From the NCBI RefSeq assembly GCF_003353425.1, contig NZ_QRAO01000005.1:62001-126000 (forward strand): a stretch of DNA of 64,000 nucleotides, in the 5' to 3' direction. Origin of the DNA: Marinirhabdus gelatinilytica. Lineage in GTDB: Bacteria > Bacteroidota > Bacteroidia > Flavobacteriales > Flavobacteriaceae. Numbering within the stretch: position 1 is the first letter of the stretch; each line of letters begins with the position of its first letter. Shown here in pieces: positions 46,650-53,734 of the stretch. The notes beneath the pieces are model-generated. The model was not told the DNA's origin and did no database searches. It saw nothing but the letters and a program-made list of their open reading frames with translations. The translations under genes and the position numbers were made by a program.

Positions 46650-49600
46650 ATGAAAACCATCACAACCCTTATAATCGCACTTTTTGCAATGACGCTAACC
46701 AACGCCCAAAACACCAATTACAATGTGCTCTGGAACAAGGTAGAGCAGTTTGAAATTGACGATTTGCCCAAATCGGCTCTAGAAATCGTCCAACAGATTG
46801 AAACCAAGGCAAAGACCGAAAACAACCAAGCGCAACTCATTAAAACCTTGCTCTTTAAAAGTAAATTTGCATTGGTCTTGGAAGAAAACTCGCAGCTAAA
46901 GGTGGTTAACGATTTTAGGACTGAAATCTCCAAGACCAATGCTCCAGCGAAAAACGTACTGCAGAATATGCTCGCCAAGCTGTATTGGGACTATTTTCAA
47001 GCCAACCGTTACCAATTTTACAACCGAACAAAAACTGCCAATAAAGTAGACGAAACCGATTTCCGCACTTGGGATCTCGAAACCCTCTTTGCTGAAATTT
47101 CCAAATATTACCAAGCCTCACTGAACAATAAAGAAACACTACAAAATACCACCACCGAAGCTTTTGAACCCATCCTCAACACCTACAAGGGCTCCAACAA
47201 AATACGCCCCACCCTATACGATTTCCTTGCCCATAACGCTTTGGAATTTTATAAGACTTCCGAAAACTCCATCACAAAACCCACGTATGCCTTTGAGGTG
47301 AACAATGCTTCTTATTTAGAGGGGTTTCAAAAATTTCAGCAGCTTGAAATTGCTTCAAAAGATACTATTTCACTGGAGTTGAAAGCACTTCGGTTATATC
47401 AAGATTTAATTGAGTTCCATTCAGCAAAAAACAACACAGTACCCCTTGCAGCAGTAGATGTGGAACGCCTTTCTTTTGTAAAATCGAATGGGACTATCCC
47501 CGAAAAGGAAGCGGTATACCTTTCAGCATTACAGCATGGAAAACAAAAAGTGAGCGCTCCTTACGCTAAAGCCTTATACAACTTTGCCATTGCCGAGGGT
47601 ATATATGAAAAAGGAAACTCCTACGTAGCAGGAGAAAATGAAACCGATCGCTGGGCCCATAAAGAAGCCCTAGAAATATGCGAACGGCTCATTACTACCT
47701 TCCCAGACACCTACATTGCGGTACAGGCCAAAAACTTAAAACAGACTATTACAAGCCCTTTGCTACAAGTGCAACTAGAGGCTTTTCTCCCTATACATAG
47801 TGACAGCCGTATGCTGGTAACTTATAAAAATTCGCCCAGCGTTCAGCTTTGGGTGTATGAAATTTCAGCAAAACAGAGCGAACAGTTACAACGTATTTAC
47901 GACAAAGAAAAAAAGCGGGACTTTATTGAAAAACTCTCCCTGCAAAAGCAGTGGACCCAACAATTACGTGACGAGGGTGATTACCGCCAACACAGCACCG
48001 AAATCCTACTCCCCGGTTTTCCACAGGGCCATTATCTCGTGCTAGCTACACCAACCAATACCGAGAACAAACGCCTTTTTGAAGTTGCCGAAATACAATA
48101 TACCAACTTGGCGCTGGTACAAACGCAGGACAAGAAGTATTCCTATTACCAAGTGGTGGACAGAAACAATGGCCAACCCATTGCCAACGCAAATTGCATT
48201 GTAAGGGACGATCGTAAAAAGTATCGAAAAAGCTACACCAGTGATACCAAGGGGTTTATTAAAGTACCAAAGTACAATCGCAATTATTATAACTTTTCGG
48301 TAACCGTGGAAAAGGGTGACGATACAGCTGTATTCTCAAACTATTACAATTACAACCGATATTACGATGATGACGAAAACCCTTATAAAAGTTACCTGTT
48401 CACGGACCGAAGCATCTATCGTCCTGGACAAACGGTGTATTTTAAGGCCATTATCGTGAAGGCCGAAAAGGAAAAAGCCGCCGTAGCCCCCAACGAATCA
48501 CTTACAGCAACTCTCTACGATGCCAACGGTGATGAGCAAGGCGAATTGAAACTAAAGACCACCGAATTTGGTACCGTAGCAGGCGAATTTGTGGTTCCAA
48601 CCGGAGTCTTAACAGGTCAATTCCATATTGAAATAGCATCGAATACCCCAAAAAAATATTTCCAAGATTTTTACTTCAGGGTAGAGGAATACAAGCGTCC
48701 CAAGTTTGAAACCAACTTTAAACCGGTGCCCGAAACCTATCGTGTTAATGATAGTATTACGGTAAAAGGGGAGGCAGTCTCGTTTTCGGGCAGCAACATT
48801 ACCAATGCCAAGGTAACCTACAAAGTAACCCGAAAGGTACAGTACCCACGCTGGTGGTATTGGGGGCGTTCTTATAACATGGGCGAAGGGCAGGAAATCA
48901 CCTTTGGAGAAACCACCACCAATAATAAGGGCGAATACGAAATTGACTTTAAAGCCCTTCCCGATGGTACAGTGGACAAGGACGGGCAGCCTATATTCCA
49001 ATATGAGGTAACAGCAGATGTAACCGACATAAACGGTGAGACCCAAAGCACCAAAACCATTGTGAATGTAGGCTACCACGCCCTCACTATTGGTTTGCAA
49101 GTACCACAACGGTTGGACAAGCAAAACAAAAAGGAAAAAATTGAAATCACCACCAAAAACCTAAATGGTGAAAAAGTTTCCGCAACGGTCACCCTTAAAA
49201 TATATAAACTGAAAGCCCCCGAAACCGTATTCTGCAAACGCCCGTGGAATGCACCGGATTATCAGGAGTACAGTAAAGAGCAATTTAAAAAATTGTTCCC
49301 CCACGACCCTTATAACAATGAAGACAATATCCAGAATTGGGAACGAGGCGAAGAGGTGTTCAGTACAACAATAGATTCAGAAAATGTAGACGAACTGGAA
49401 CTTGGGAATTTAAAAAGATGGGCTTCGGGAGCTTATGTAGTCGTGGCAACCACCCAAGAAAAGTTTGGGCAGGAAGTGAAGGCCAAAAGCTATACAAAAG
49501 TGTTCAGCAACAAGGACAAAACCCCTGCAAATAATGCCCTTTTCGATATTTCCCTAGATAAAGAAACCTACGCGCCGGGCGACACAGCCCTTGTGACCGT

Positions 49601-52600
49601 AAAATCCAACGCAGCCATCACTGTGACACTCTCCGTGGAGAAACAACACCAAATCACCCAAACCTTTGTACTGGCGTTGGATAGTAACTCAAAGACTATT
49701 TCTATTCCTGTAACTGCTGAAGACATAGGTGGCTTTGTGGTGCATCGTTCACTTACCGCTTTTAATAGTTTTGAAGGGAGCGTCCATTACATTTCGGTCC
49801 CTGCTCCCAAAACCGAACTGACAATTGAAACCAACACCTTCCGTGACAAATTGGAACCAGGCGTGCCAGAAACTTGGAGCTTTACCATAAAAGGCCCCAA
49901 AGGTGAAAAAGTTTCAGCAGAATTGTTGGCGAGCATGTACGATTTGTCACTCGATCAATTTGCACCCCACGCTTGGAGTTTTAAACCGCAACCTTCGCTC
50001 AGGTACCGTCCTATTAGCAATCCTAGTGCCTCACAGAGTTTTGGAAATAGGGCTATTTATCTGGAACGAGAGTATCGCAATTACTATCATACAAACCCAC
50101 AACGTTTTGATCAATTTAATTGGTTTGGGTTGGATTTTTCTGGGCAGACTTGGCGATACAATAGATACAAAAATTCCTTGCGCCAAAAAATTAAGGAAAG
50201 CTATTCATCAACAGTAAAAGACGGTTTTATACGAGGCACTATTTATGATGAAAACGGACTCCCAATCCCTGGTGTAAACGTTGTTGTAAAAGGAACACAA
50301 CGAGGCACCCAAAGTGATTTTGATGGGAATTTCGAAATAAAAGCTGAAAAAGGAGAGGAATTAGTTTTCAGTTATATAGGCTACAAAGAAGAATCTCTAA
50401 AACTCAAGAAAAATAATGTTTTAGATATTCATCTGTGGGAATCTGGATCTAATCTCGACGAAGTAATTGTTACCGCACAAGGAATCCCTAGAGAGAAAAA
50501 AGCATTGGGCTATGCGGTGAGCGAAGTCTCTGCAGATGCGATTGAAGAAGAGATAGCTGCACCTTTAGATGGAGTTGCTGGTGGTCTTAAAATGGAAGAT
50601 GAAGAAGAAAGTAATGTTGCACAAAAAGAACCAGATTTCAGCACCGTAAAAATCCGCAAGAACCTTCAAGAGACCGCTTTTTTCTATCCGCAGTTACGAA
50701 CCGATAAGGACGGTACTATTTCCTTTAACTTTACCACCCCCGAGGCATTGACCCGTTGGAAAGTACAGCTCTTGGCGCATACCAAGGACCTCAACTCACA
50801 GGTTTCCACGTTCGAAACAGTAACTCAAAAAGAATTGATGGTAGTACCAAACGCGCCCAGATTTTTACGGGAGGGGGACGAGATTATCATCAGTGCTAAA
50901 ATTTCAAATTTAAGCGACAGCAAATTAACTGGAAAGATAGTTCTGCAACTGGAAGATGCGATAACTACAGCATCCATAAATAGGTTTTTTAATAAAGGAG
51001 AGCGAATTAAAGAATTTTCGGTAGGTAAGAATGAAAATACAGAAGTTTCGTGGCGACTACAAATTCCTTCCGACTATGCTGCCGTGCAATATAAAATTAT
51101 TGCCAAGACCAATAATTTCAGCGATGGCGAGCAAAACACCCTTCCAATCCTGAGCAACCGTATGTTGGTGACCGAGACCCAGCCTATGTGGGTGCGCTCC
51201 AACCAAACAAAAACGTTTACGCTGGATAAGCTGAAGAACAATACTTCAACTACATTAAAACACCACAAATTAACGCTCGAGATCACGTCCAACCCAGCGT
51301 GGTATGCGGTGCAGGCACTCCCCTATTTAATGGAGTTTCCATACGAGTGCAACGAGCAGACCTTTGCGCGCTATTATGCCAACACACTGGCAACACACAT
51401 TGCCAACAGCAATCCGCGCATCAAGGCGGTGTTCGACCAATGGTCTAATAGTGATGCATTATTGAGCAATCTGGAAAAGAACGAGGAGTTGAAATCGTTA
51501 TTGGTTCAAGAAACCCCATGGTTACGGGATGCCCAGAGCGAAGCCGAACAAAAAAAGCGTATCGCCCTACTCTTTGACCTCAACTTGATGCAGCGCAAGC
51601 AACAAGAAGCCGTGATGAAACTGCAGCAAAACCAATTGGGTTCCGGGGCTTGGCCGTGGTTCAATGGCGGGTATGCCAACAGATACATTACACAACATAT
51701 CGCAACTGGGTTTGGACATTTGAAAGCACTTGAAATCGACCCTTCGACTTCGCTCAGGGTGACCCACGAAAAAATGATTGAAAAAGCCGTTAGTTACCTG
51801 GATACGGAATTTGTAAAGGAGTACAGGCGTTTGTCACAATACACCCAAAAACCAGATTATAGCAAGGATCACTTAAGCCGAATGCAGACACATTATTTGT
51901 ATATGCGCAGCTTTTTTCCTGAGCTTCAAAAAAGTAAAGAGGTAGAAAAAATAAGCGACTATTACTTAGGGCAAATGGAAACCTATTGGAACACCCGAGA
52001 CCTATATAGCAAAGGGATGATCGCCCTGGTATTACACCGAAACGGAAAGACTGCCACTGCTTCAAAAATCACCAAATCGTTGAAGGAAACCAGTATTACC
52101 AGCGAAGAATTGGGGATGTACTGGAAGAGCAACACTCCATCATGGTATTGGTACCAAGCTCCTATCGAGACCCAGGCATTGATGGTCGAAGTGTTTTCTG
52201 AAATTGAAAAAGACACCGAAACCATAGACCATTTGAAAGTTTGGCTGCTAAAAAACAAACAGACCAACCAGTGGCGCACCACCAAAGCGACAACCGAGGC
52301 AGTATATGCGTTACTGCTCCAAGGTACCGATTGGTTGAGCGTGACAGAAGCGGTACAAGTAACCGTGGGCAATCAAGTTATAGACCCTTCCACCATGGAC
52401 AATATAAAAGTGGAGGCAGGAACCGGTTATTTTAAAACCAGCTGGAATACTACTCAAATAGAAGAAGAAATGGCTACCGTCACTATGCAGAAAAAAGGGG
52501 AAGGCATTGCTTGGGGTGGAATGTACTGGCAATATTTTGAGGATCTCGATAAGATCACCCACGCCGAAACCCCGTTGCAACTTCAGAAAAAATTGTTCTT

Positions 52601-52997
52601 AAAGAAAAATACCGCTACGGGTGAAGAACTTTCAGCAATTACCGAAAGTACTGCGCTACAAGTAGGCGATTTGGTCCGGGTGCGTATAGAATTGCGAACC
52701 GACCGCGAAATGGATTTTGTACACATGAAGGATATGCGAGCCGCGGGACTTGAGCCCATAGACGTTCTCTCCACCTATAAATGGCAGGACGGGCTGGGCT
52801 ATTACCAAGCTACCAAGGATGCCAGTACCAATTTCTTTTTCGATACCCTCCAAAAGGGTGTGTATGTGTTTGAATATGACCTACGGGTAAACAACGCAGG
52901 AGATTTCAGCAATGGTATTACCACCATACAGAGTATGTACGCACCAGAATTTACAAGCCATAGTGAAGGGATAAGAATTAGTGTAGGAAACGAATAA
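46650..52997 (+). CDS. Alpha-2-macroglobulin family protein with inserted SusC-like domain
   Basis: A 2115-residue exported protein; the ATG at 46650 gives the signal peptide MKTITTLIIALFAMTLTNAQ without a lipobox. After a helical N-terminal region come macroglobulin domains (MG2: FTDRSIYRPGQTVYFKAI, about 585), a bait-region-type domain (about 1050-1120) and then, at about 1190-1300, a carboxypeptidase-regulatory/SusC-type domain (IRGTIYDENGLPIPGVNVVV, DEVIVTAQGIPREKKALGYA). The core A2M domain follows (TPEALTRWKV), then the thioester motif CNEQ at Cys1567-Gln1570 and the complement-like helical domain. Such proteins trap proteases. A REP-derived stretch, PSTSLRVT, is at 1698-1705. Next gene is DoxX-like. 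Confidence 0.92.
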   Translation: MKTITTLIIALFAMTLTNAQNTNYNVLWNKVEQFEIDDLPKSALEIVQQIETKAKTENNQAQLIKTLLFKSKFALVLEENSQLKVVNDFRTEISKTNAPAKNVLQNMLAKLYWDYFQANRYQFYNRTKTANKVDETDFRTWDLETLFAEISKYYQASLNNKETLQNTTTEAFEPILNTYKGSNKIRPTLYDFLAHNALEFYKTSENSITKPTYAFEVNNASYLEGFQKFQQLEIASKDTISLELKALRLYQDLIEFHSAKNNTVPLAAVDVERLSFVKSNGTIPEKEAVYLSALQHGKQKVSAPYAKALYNFAIAEGIYEKGNSYVAGENETDRWAHKEALEICERLITTFPDTYIAVQAKNLKQTITSPLLQVQLEAFLPIHSDSRMLVTYKNSPSVQLWVYEISAKQSEQLQRIYDKEKKRDFIEKLSLQKQWTQQLRDEGDYRQHSTEILLPGFPQGHYLVLATPTNTENKRLFEVAEIQYTNLALVQTQDKKYSYYQVVDRNNGQPIANANCIVRDDRKKYRKSYTSDTKGFIKVPKYNRNYYNFSVTVEKGDDTAVFSNYYNYNRYYDDDENPYKSYLFTDRSIYRPGQTVYFKAIIVKAEKEKAAVAPNESLTATLYDANGDEQGELKLKTTEFGTVAGEFVVPTGVLTGQFHIEIASNTPKKYFQDFYFRVEEYKRPKFETNFKPVPETYRVNDSITVKGEAVSFSGSNITNAKVTYKVTRKVQYPRWWYWGRSYNMGEGQEITFGETTTNNKGEYEIDFKALPDGTVDKDGQPIFQYEVTADVTDINGETQSTKTIVNVGYHALTIGLQVPQRLDKQNKKEKIEITTKNLNGEKVSATVTLKIYKLKAPETVFCKRPWNAPDYQEYSKEQFKKLFPHDPYNNEDNIQNWERGEEVFSTTIDSENVDELELGNLKRWASGAYVVVATTQEKFGQEVKAKSYTKVFSNKDKTPANNALFDISLDKETYAPGDTALVTVKSNAAITVTLSVEKQHQITQTFVLALDSNSKTISIPVTAEDIGGFVVHRSLTAFNSFEGSVHYISVPAPKTELTIETNTFRDKLEPGVPETWSFTIKGPKGEKVSAELLASMYDLSLDQFAPHAWSFKPQPSLRYRPISNPSASQSFGNRAIYLEREYRNYYHTNPQRFDQFNWFGLDFSGQTWRYNRYKNSLRQKIKESYSSTVKDGFIRGTIYDENGLPIPGVNVVVKGTQRGTQSDFDGNFEIKAEKGEELVFSYIGYKEESLKLKKNNVLDIHLWESGSNLDEVIVTAQGIPREKKALGYAVSEVSADAIEEEIAAPLDGVAGGLKMEDEEESNVAQKEPDFSTVKIRKNLQETAFFYPQLRTDKDGTISFNFTTPEALTRWKVQLLAHTKDLNSQVSTFETVTQKELMVVPNAPRFLREGDEIIISAKISNLSDSKLTGKIVLQLEDAITTASINRFFNKGERIKEFSVGKNENTEVSWRLQIPSDYAAVQYKIIAKTNNFSDGEQNTLPILSNRMLVTETQPMWVRSNQTKTFTLDKLKNNTSTTLKHHKLTLEITSNPAWYAVQALPYLMEFPYECNEQTFARYYANTLATHIANSNPRIKAVFDQWSNSDALLSNLEKNEELKSLLVQETPWLRDAQSEAEQKKRIALLFDLNLMQRKQQEAVMKLQQNQLGSGAWPWFNGGYANRYITQHIATGFGHLKALEIDPSTSLRVTHEKMIEKAVSYLDTEFVKEYRRLSQYTQKPDYSKDHLSRMQTHYLYMRSFFPELQKSKEVEKISDYYLGQMETYWNTRDLYSKGMIALVLHRNGKTATASKITKSLKETSITSEELGMYWKSNTPSWYWYQAPIETQALMVEVFSEIEKDTETIDHLKVWLLKNKQTNQWRTTKATTEAVYALLLQGTDWLSVTEAVQVTVGNQVIDPSTMDNIKVEAGTGYFKTSWNTTQIEEEMATVTMQKKGEGIAWGGMYWQYFEDLDKITHAETPLQLQKKLFLKKNTATGEELSAITESTALQVGDLVRVRIELRTDREMDFVHMKDMRAAGLEPIDVLSTYKWQDGLGYYQATKDASTNFFFDTLQKGVYVFEYDLRVNNAGDFSNGITTIQSMYAPEFTSHSEGIRISVGNE
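51740..51763. repeat. REP-like palindrome inside a coding region
   Basis: CCCTTCGACTTCGCTCAGGG followed by TGAC is a full copy of the Flavobacteriaceae PST-type palindrome. Here it lies in frame within the alpha-2-macroglobulin gene and is translated as DPSTSLRVT, between two helices of the thioester-side domain. Confidence 0.75.
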
Positions 52998-53026: not shown

Positions 53027-53734
53027 ATGAAAACATTTGAACGCTTTTACCGTAACGCCAAGGCCAATAGATGGTACTGGTTGTTTGCGCTGTTTTGCCG
53101 CGTATCTTTGTCCATAGGCTTTATCGCTTCGGGAATGGTAAAGATTTTGGGCGAACGTTTTGCCAGTGGGCTTTCAGCAAACCACCCAATGGGGGCATAT
53201 CTGGAAGCATTGCACCATACGGGTTATTATTACACCTTTATTGGCGTTGCCCAGGTAATCGCAGCTATTCTTTTGCTCATACCTCGCACAGTGGCGTTGG
53301 GTGCACTTTTATATTTCCCTATTATCGTAAATATAACGGTGCTTTCGTTTGCGGTTCGGTTTGATGGCTCTTTTGTTTCGGCACCGTTAATGGTACTGGC
53401 GTGTTTGTACTTGCTGTTCTGGAATTATGATTCGCTGAAATACATACTACCGTTCAAAAAGCATGAAAACAAAACCATTGCCCTGAAACCTGCAAGGTAT
53501 AGCTTGAGATTTCCATTTGGTTTTGCAGCTGCGGTTATTGCAATGATAGCCGTAGTAATTTTGTTTTTCGCCTATGGTCACGATGTAATGCCCCGAAATG
53601 ATTTTAAAAACTGCATGGCTCAATTTCAACAAACCGAGTACGAAATGATTGGGAAAGAATTCTGTGAGTGCGTACACAAAAAAGGGGAGCCACTAGACAT
53701 CTGTTTGGGGGTTTTTGAGACTGCTATTCCTTAG
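53027..53734 (+). CDS. DoxX-like membrane protein
   Basis: A 235-residue protein with about four membrane segments in the first 150 residues (FCRVSLSIGFIASGMVKILG, YTFIGVAQVIAAILLLIP, ALGALLYFPIIVNITVLSFAV, LMVLACLYLLFW) and a fifth at about 165-185, resembling the DoxX family of unknown or quinone-related function. The C-terminal tail has three Cys (NCMAQF, FCECVHKKGEPLDICLG), which is unusual and could bind a metal or form disulfides. It follows the alpha-2-macroglobulin gene by 29 bases on the same strand. Confidence 0.75.
   Translation: MKTFERFYRNAKANRWYWLFALFCRVSLSIGFIASGMVKILGERFASGLSANHPMGAYLEALHHTGYYYTFIGVAQVIAAILLLIPRTVALGALLYFPIIVNITVLSFAVRFDGSFVSAPLMVLACLYLLFWNYDSLKYILPFKKHENKTIALKPARYSLRFPFGFAAAVIAMIAVVILFFAYGHDVMPRNDFKNCMAQFQQTEYEMIGKEFCECVHKKGEPLDICLGVFETAIP

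Follow-up and report, generated by a model that had tools for sequence, protein, structure and literature searches.

A SusC-derived module at the bait position of a bacterial alpha-2-macroglobulin from Marinirhabdus gelatinilytica

The gene, its domains and the SusC-derived module

The window analysed here, a stretch of 64,000 nucleotides from Marinirhabdus gelatinilytica (contig NZ_QRAO01000005.1, positions 62,001 to 126,000 of the forward strand), encodes an alpha-2-macroglobulin (A2M) whose bait appears to derive from the N-terminal region of a TonB-dependent transporter of the SusC type. A sequence-only reading had placed a SusC N-terminal domain and the start of its plug between the bait-type and core A2M domains of a protein with an intact thioester at Cys1567. 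It had named structure prediction, a search for the same architecture and a comparison with A2Ms lacking the domain as checks, and two genes joined by an assembly error as one case that would overturn it. The features are as follows; all lie on the plus strand, and residues are those of the A2M.

46650-52997: A2M gene, 2115 amino acids, one open frame without internal stops
residues 581-677: macroglobulin (MG) domain MG2 (Pfam)
49545-49892, residues 966-1081: A2M_BRD, bait-region domain (Pfam)
49968-50654, residues 1107-1335: whole bait segment (boundaries by hidden Markov models of the orthologues' flanks; AlphaFold2 models)
50229-50471, residues 1194-1274: CarbopepD_reg_2, the SusC N-terminal domain (NTE) (Pfam, 8e-22)
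50454-50483, residues 1269-1278: Ton box-like segment LDEVIVTAQG (from the sequence), at the start of a predicted disordered stretch
50484-50594, residues 1279-1315: start of the SusC plug region, IPREKKALGYAVSEVSADAI... (TIGR04056 match to 1315; predicted disordered, pLDDT (predicted local distance difference test) about 30)
50655-50942, residues 1336-1431: second half of the bait-bearing MG domain, including the start of PF00207 (RKNLQETAFF...) (Pfam, flank profiles, AlphaFold2)
residues 1342-1431: PF00207, A2M (Pfam)
51348-51359, residues 1567-1570: thioester motif CNEQ (from the sequence)
52575-52949, residues 1976-2100: bMG10, C-terminal MG domain (Pfam)

The protein starts with MKTITTLIIALFAMTLTNAQ, judged by eye to be a non-lipoprotein signal peptide. 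Its MG2, bait-region, A2M and bMG10 domains occur in the order expected for a bacterial A2M (Pfam), the A2M_BRD match extending over the MG domain that precedes the split, bait-bearing domain and into the latter's first strands. The thioester CNEQ is intact, as had been read. The SusC model TIGR04056 (NCBIfam) matches residues 1194-1315 (E 2.7e-34), between the bait-type and core domains, and only through model positions 3-127 of 981. With 118.7 bits the match stays below the family cut-off of 368.25, and there is no beta-barrel; in the genome of M. gelatinilytica the A2M ranks fifth against this model, behind four true SusC proteins. SusC homologues in the PDB match residues 1190-1307 (phmmer, E 1.5e-10). 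By all sequence features tested the protein is thus a bacterial A2M and, because the barrel is missing, not a SusC; judged by these matches, the SusC stretch within it is real, far beyond chance.

SusC/RagA transporters carry an N-terminal CarbopepD_reg_2 domain with a Ton box behind it. In the levan SusC Bt1763, the Ton box DEVVVTG lies between the NTE (Pfam PF13715) and the plug, and deletion of VDEVVV causes a growth defect like that of a lidless transporter (PMC7782687). In the A2M, LDEVIVTAQG is followed by IPREKKALGYAVSEV, similar to GIAREKKALGYAVST in a SusC of the same genome (L123). The NTE, the Ton box and the first plug residues are common to the A2M and the SusC/RagA transporters (TIGR04056; Bt1763, BT3090), but the A2M carries them in the middle of its chain and lacks both the barrel and a complete plug: the plug family PF07715 has no Pfam match in this A2M, in which only about 40 residues from the start of the plug region are present. 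The pattern L-[DE]-E-V-[VL]-[IV] is also seen directly behind a CarbopepD_reg-type domain at five other loci of the genome (L127, L130, L135, L139 and L145).

An assembly error or a fusion of two genes has a negligible probability. Nothing beyond the odd combination of domains speaks for it; third-position GC around the insert is only slightly lower than elsewhere (0.34 versus 0.38-0.52). The orthologues of many independent genomes have the same layout, so that misassembly and frame fusion are excluded in practice.

Position of the insert and predicted structure

The bait segment (229 residues) lies between the two halves of a split MG domain, which is MG8 in bacterial numbering and MG6 in complement. 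A first AlphaFold2 model (residues 935-1564, 630 residues; predicted template modelling score (pTM) 0.36) gives the SusC domain a pLDDT of 92-97 and a disordered tail. In a second model (residues 581-1496, 916 residues; mean pLDDT 80.7, pTM 0.63), the insert lies between MG strands whose pLDDT is mostly 80-92, and the SusC domain scores mostly 86-93; values <50 are found before this domain (1132-1180) and after it (1267-1326, with the Ton box). AlphaFold2 therefore puts the module between the halves of the bait-bearing MG domain, in agreement with the insertion into MG6 for which structure prediction had been proposed as a check. The SusC domain is predicted to be folded and the Ton box to lie in a disordered stretch, as expected of a bait.

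When the PDB was searched with a profile of 58 aligned sequences, no match was obtained, and fold comparison was needed instead. For the inserted domain, the structural match is the NTE of SusC BT3090 (9hfj; Z 14.4, 1.7 Å over 80 residues). The fold of residues 581-1496 has its best matches in the E. coli A2M ECAM and the Salmonella A2M, with ECAM first (5a42; Foldseek E 3.8e-30), and comparison with 4rtd gives a VIA Z of 23.8 with a root-mean-square deviation of 4.6 over 425 residues. The stretch before the insert aligns with the C3 beta chain to about residue 624 (2qki_D), and the stretch behind it with C3b alpha' from about residue 730, just after the C3a domain. Since the two flanks align with C3 on either side, the insert, in these models, occupies the place of the anaphylatoxin domain of complement and of the A2M bait. 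Collectively, domain matches, predicted placement and the CNEQ motif bear out the central claim of the sequence-only reading, a transporter-derived module at the bait position of a thioester-intact A2M.

ECAM and the Salmonella A2M (4rtd, 4ziq, 4u48, 5a42) have the same MG layout, with the bait in the same MG domain, a thioester and MG10. Their bait is largely disordered (in elastase-cut ECAM, 20 bait residues, 923-942, are not visible; PMC4498604), whereas in the bait described here a SusC domain is predicted to fold and a Ton box is present. Complement C3, C4 and C5 likewise have a folded domain inserted at the bait-equivalent position, but the anaphylatoxin domain has a fold unrelated to that of the SusC domain. 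C3 is cleaved by a dedicated convertase. By analogy, a specific endogenous protease could cut the bait and free or expose the SusC domain, as the convertase frees C3a. The folded domain does sit at the place of C3a; it is, however, missing in most relatives, many of which keep the linear motifs, and release of this kind is very improbable.

SusC elements in the baits of related A2Ms

Relatives were collected from 198 genomes of the phylum and from species genomes (80 loci, nearly all from Flavobacteriaceae). They yielded 109 A2M genes with a bait excisable by flank profiles, among them the gene of the window; L016 and L108 are one bait. Bait length ranges from 110 to 305 residues. A profile from 33 SusC N-termini was scanned over the 109 baits; 1073 stretches taken from elsewhere in these proteins served as the control. 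A Ton box scoring above all 1073 controls occurs in 54 baits, the plug motif ALQGRVAGV in 39 and the plug end ANGVILITT in 17; at least one SusC element stands at the bait place in 79 of the genes. Make-up varies: one set of baits combines the NTE and Ton box with the plug core, another has NTE and Ton box like the A2M of the window, and many baits have short motifs only; the plug core is present, for example, in L017, L080 and L117. More than a dozen baits carry ALQGRVAGV or IRIRG ahead of the Ton box, the reverse of the transporter order.

The architecture sought by the earlier reading is thus found in orthologues from many genomes, and the comparison with A2Ms lacking the domain gives the complementary result: 19 of the 20 more distant A2Ms of the phylum from the same search lack these motifs, the Ton box included (the exception is L204), among them the second A2M of the M. 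gelatinilytica genome (C1:537918), which has no SusC motifs at the bait. The thioester motif is kept in 105 of the 109 relatives. It is lost in L035, L036 and L038 (Ton box, no NTE) and in L023 (Ton box and NTE); because these four thioester-less A2Ms carry a Ton box, the role of the Ton box need not depend on covalent capture.

Selective retention of motifs in short baits

Retention was profiled by moving a 12-residue window along the SusC module in 65 short baits of Flavobacteriaceae. Windows of the SusC domain have 0-3 matches each. Matches peak at 33 on the Ton box (AGLDEVVVVGYG), fall to 5-6 in the linker around VTGAVS and to 0-1 beyond, rise again to a maximum of 24 at EQALQGRVAGVQ (the ALQGRVAGV motif) and are mostly 2-10 in the plug core. 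The difference between the Ton box (33/65) and the linker window 15 residues on (5/65) has a Fisher p of 6e-8, for sequences that are not independent. Most windows do detect the fully modular A2Ms, although for some linker windows the share detected is half or less; therefore, the profile is not explained by weak detection alone. Through position 10, conservation among the short baits tracks SusC; beyond it, conservation falls. Mapped on a tree built from the conserved flanks (94 rows), the NTE requires 17 changes (13 forced by well-supported branches) and the Ton-box-only state 22 (14 forced). With so many forced changes, retention of the Ton box is not one inherited case, even if the counts are not independent of each other.

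A pair test was set aside as evidence. In the 54 baits with a Ton box, identity of the motif in the nearest relative is 0.50, against 0.31 for the rest of the variable bait (p 4e-5), but intact index motifs raise the identity expected under neutrality, to about 0.56 by our own estimate. The retention profile avoids this ascertainment bias.

Bait turnover and origin of the transporter pieces

Sister genes can differ almost only in the bait. The flanks of L098 and L109 are 94% identical and their baits 12%; the figures for L064 and L091 are 97% and 14%, and L048 and L100 are a further pair with near-identical flanks and an almost wholly different bait. Such wholesale replacement points to cassette exchange between species. 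A recent copy from a SusC of its own genome is rejected for the A2M of the window, whose best counterpart there is 50% identical over 114 residues. Many independent captures of SusC inside Flavobacteriaceae are likewise unsupported, the A2M modules of this family forming nearly one group against SusC in the tree.

Other lineages differ. The bait of L028 has 36 residues that are 75% identical to a SusC-like frame of 1045 amino acids in its own genome. In L019, a Ton box and plug start that we call Oar-type (VSERPLIEKSSTN; the naming is ours) is about 50% identical to transporters of the same genome, and in L029 identity to an own-genome transporter is 52% over 29 residues. The distant A2M L204 has a whole module, 56% identical over 200 residues to its own SusC, beside which it stands in the tree (SH-aLRT 94); a single origin for all modules, L204 included, is not rejected by the AU test (p 0.28), which thus does not prove separate capture for L204. 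Because the bait pieces of these lineages resemble transporters of their own genomes, transporter pieces have probably been captured more than once.

These data bear on a neutral explanation, in which an ancestral SusC piece landed by chance in a permissive loop and its leftovers were spread by recombination between A2M genes. The long, hypervariable baits are compatible with it, as are the near-single group of the Flavobacteriaceae modules, the single origin that is not rejected and the ascertainment bias to which the pair test is open. Retention that is sharply uneven along the module and pieces of differing transporter types in other lineages argue in the opposite direction, and the neutral explanation is unlikely. 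Taken together, retention, transporter pieces elsewhere and bait replacement favour a functional link with TonB-dependent transporters.

Transporter mimicry or TonB docking

Both meanings raised by the sequence-only reading, a new bait and a tie to TonB/Sus complexes, are still candidates. It is tempting to propose that the bait imitates the part of TonB-dependent transporters that is exposed in the periplasm, a reading that we prefer tentatively and with less than even confidence. The bait of this putatively periplasmic A2M would be a linear mimic of the transporters' periplasmic face. A protease, foreign or own, attacking exposed Ton boxes or plugs would cut the bait instead; the A2M would then collapse around the protease and the thioester would couple to it. 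Changing protease pressure would account for the fast exchange of baits between species. Mimicry fits because two linear motifs are kept while their order is not, and because exchange is rapid; mimicry of a peptide is favoured over that of a folded plug since the kept motifs are linear and often in reversed order. Several observations weigh against mimicry. About half of the relatives have no clear Ton box, and we know of no protease that recognizes one. No bait has two Ton boxes (one copy in 58 of the 109, none in 51), though a decoy might gain from several. Furthermore, L-x-EVVV-like segments follow CarbopepD_reg-type domains in proteins of the M. gelatinilytica genome that are neither A2M nor SusC, and the motif L-[DE]-E-V-[VL]-[IV] may have a role beyond TonB-dependent transporters.

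The main rival, possible though doubtful, is that the Ton box of the bait binds TonB. The retention peak lies exactly on the published Ton box, with conservation falling right after it; the segment is predicted to be disordered, a bait holds at most one copy, and five TonB_C matches occur in the genome. Ton boxes in non-transporters have a precedent in the TonB-dependent colicins, which like the A2M have the motif in a disordered part (PMC11658791); they are imported toxins, whereas the A2M is a trap, presumably periplasmic. A YfbK-like protein with the same module (see below) hints at broader use. Docking leaves unexplained the retention of ALQGRVAGV, the fast turnover of the bait and the half of the relatives that have no clear Ton box. 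A further step, in which TonB holds or pulls the bait so that readiness or placement of the trap depends on TonB-dependent transport, is rather improbable. If true, a TonB-coupled trap would belong to a broader class of envelope non-transporters (A2M, YfbK-like proteins) with transporter Ton boxes.

For the question of what bacterial A2Ms protect against, a transporter-made bait, matched in some lineages to the transporters of the same genome, gives a concrete and testable link, either to a protease attacking the periplasmic face of transporters or to TonB itself. Such a bait would also put the Ton box to use beyond transporters and bacteriocins. Swapping of baits as cassettes between species is as expected for an arms race. 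Among the open-licence papers searched, none combined macroglobulin and TonB box, or macroglobulin, plug and Bacteroidetes; what is new, as not found reported there, is the composition of the bait, the selective way in which it is retained and the probability that it arose repeatedly.

Neighbouring observations

A protein of 235 amino acids with hydrophobic stretches is encoded 29 bases downstream of the A2M gene (53027-53734, plus strand). It has no Pfam match, and as a candidate partner of the A2M it was rejected: a tblastn search of the 80 related loci, which end at varying points, did not find it.

SusC modules are also seen next to von Willebrand factor A (vWA) domains. At L189 (G017:C8:217259-217375), a frame of 895 amino acids has an NTE, a Ton box and a complete SusC plug ahead of a YfbK-like vWA domain; the YfbK-type vWA family was looked for in the M. 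gelatinilytica genome and not found there. At L186 (G192:C75:24919-25008), a frame of 1033 amino acids has a vWA-like region and a plug-like IRGGRSNETQVRVQGTDVGDQF, and the preceding YPNPQIAVGAVKANRIYDSVVTT recurs in L029, the bait of an A2M in that genome.
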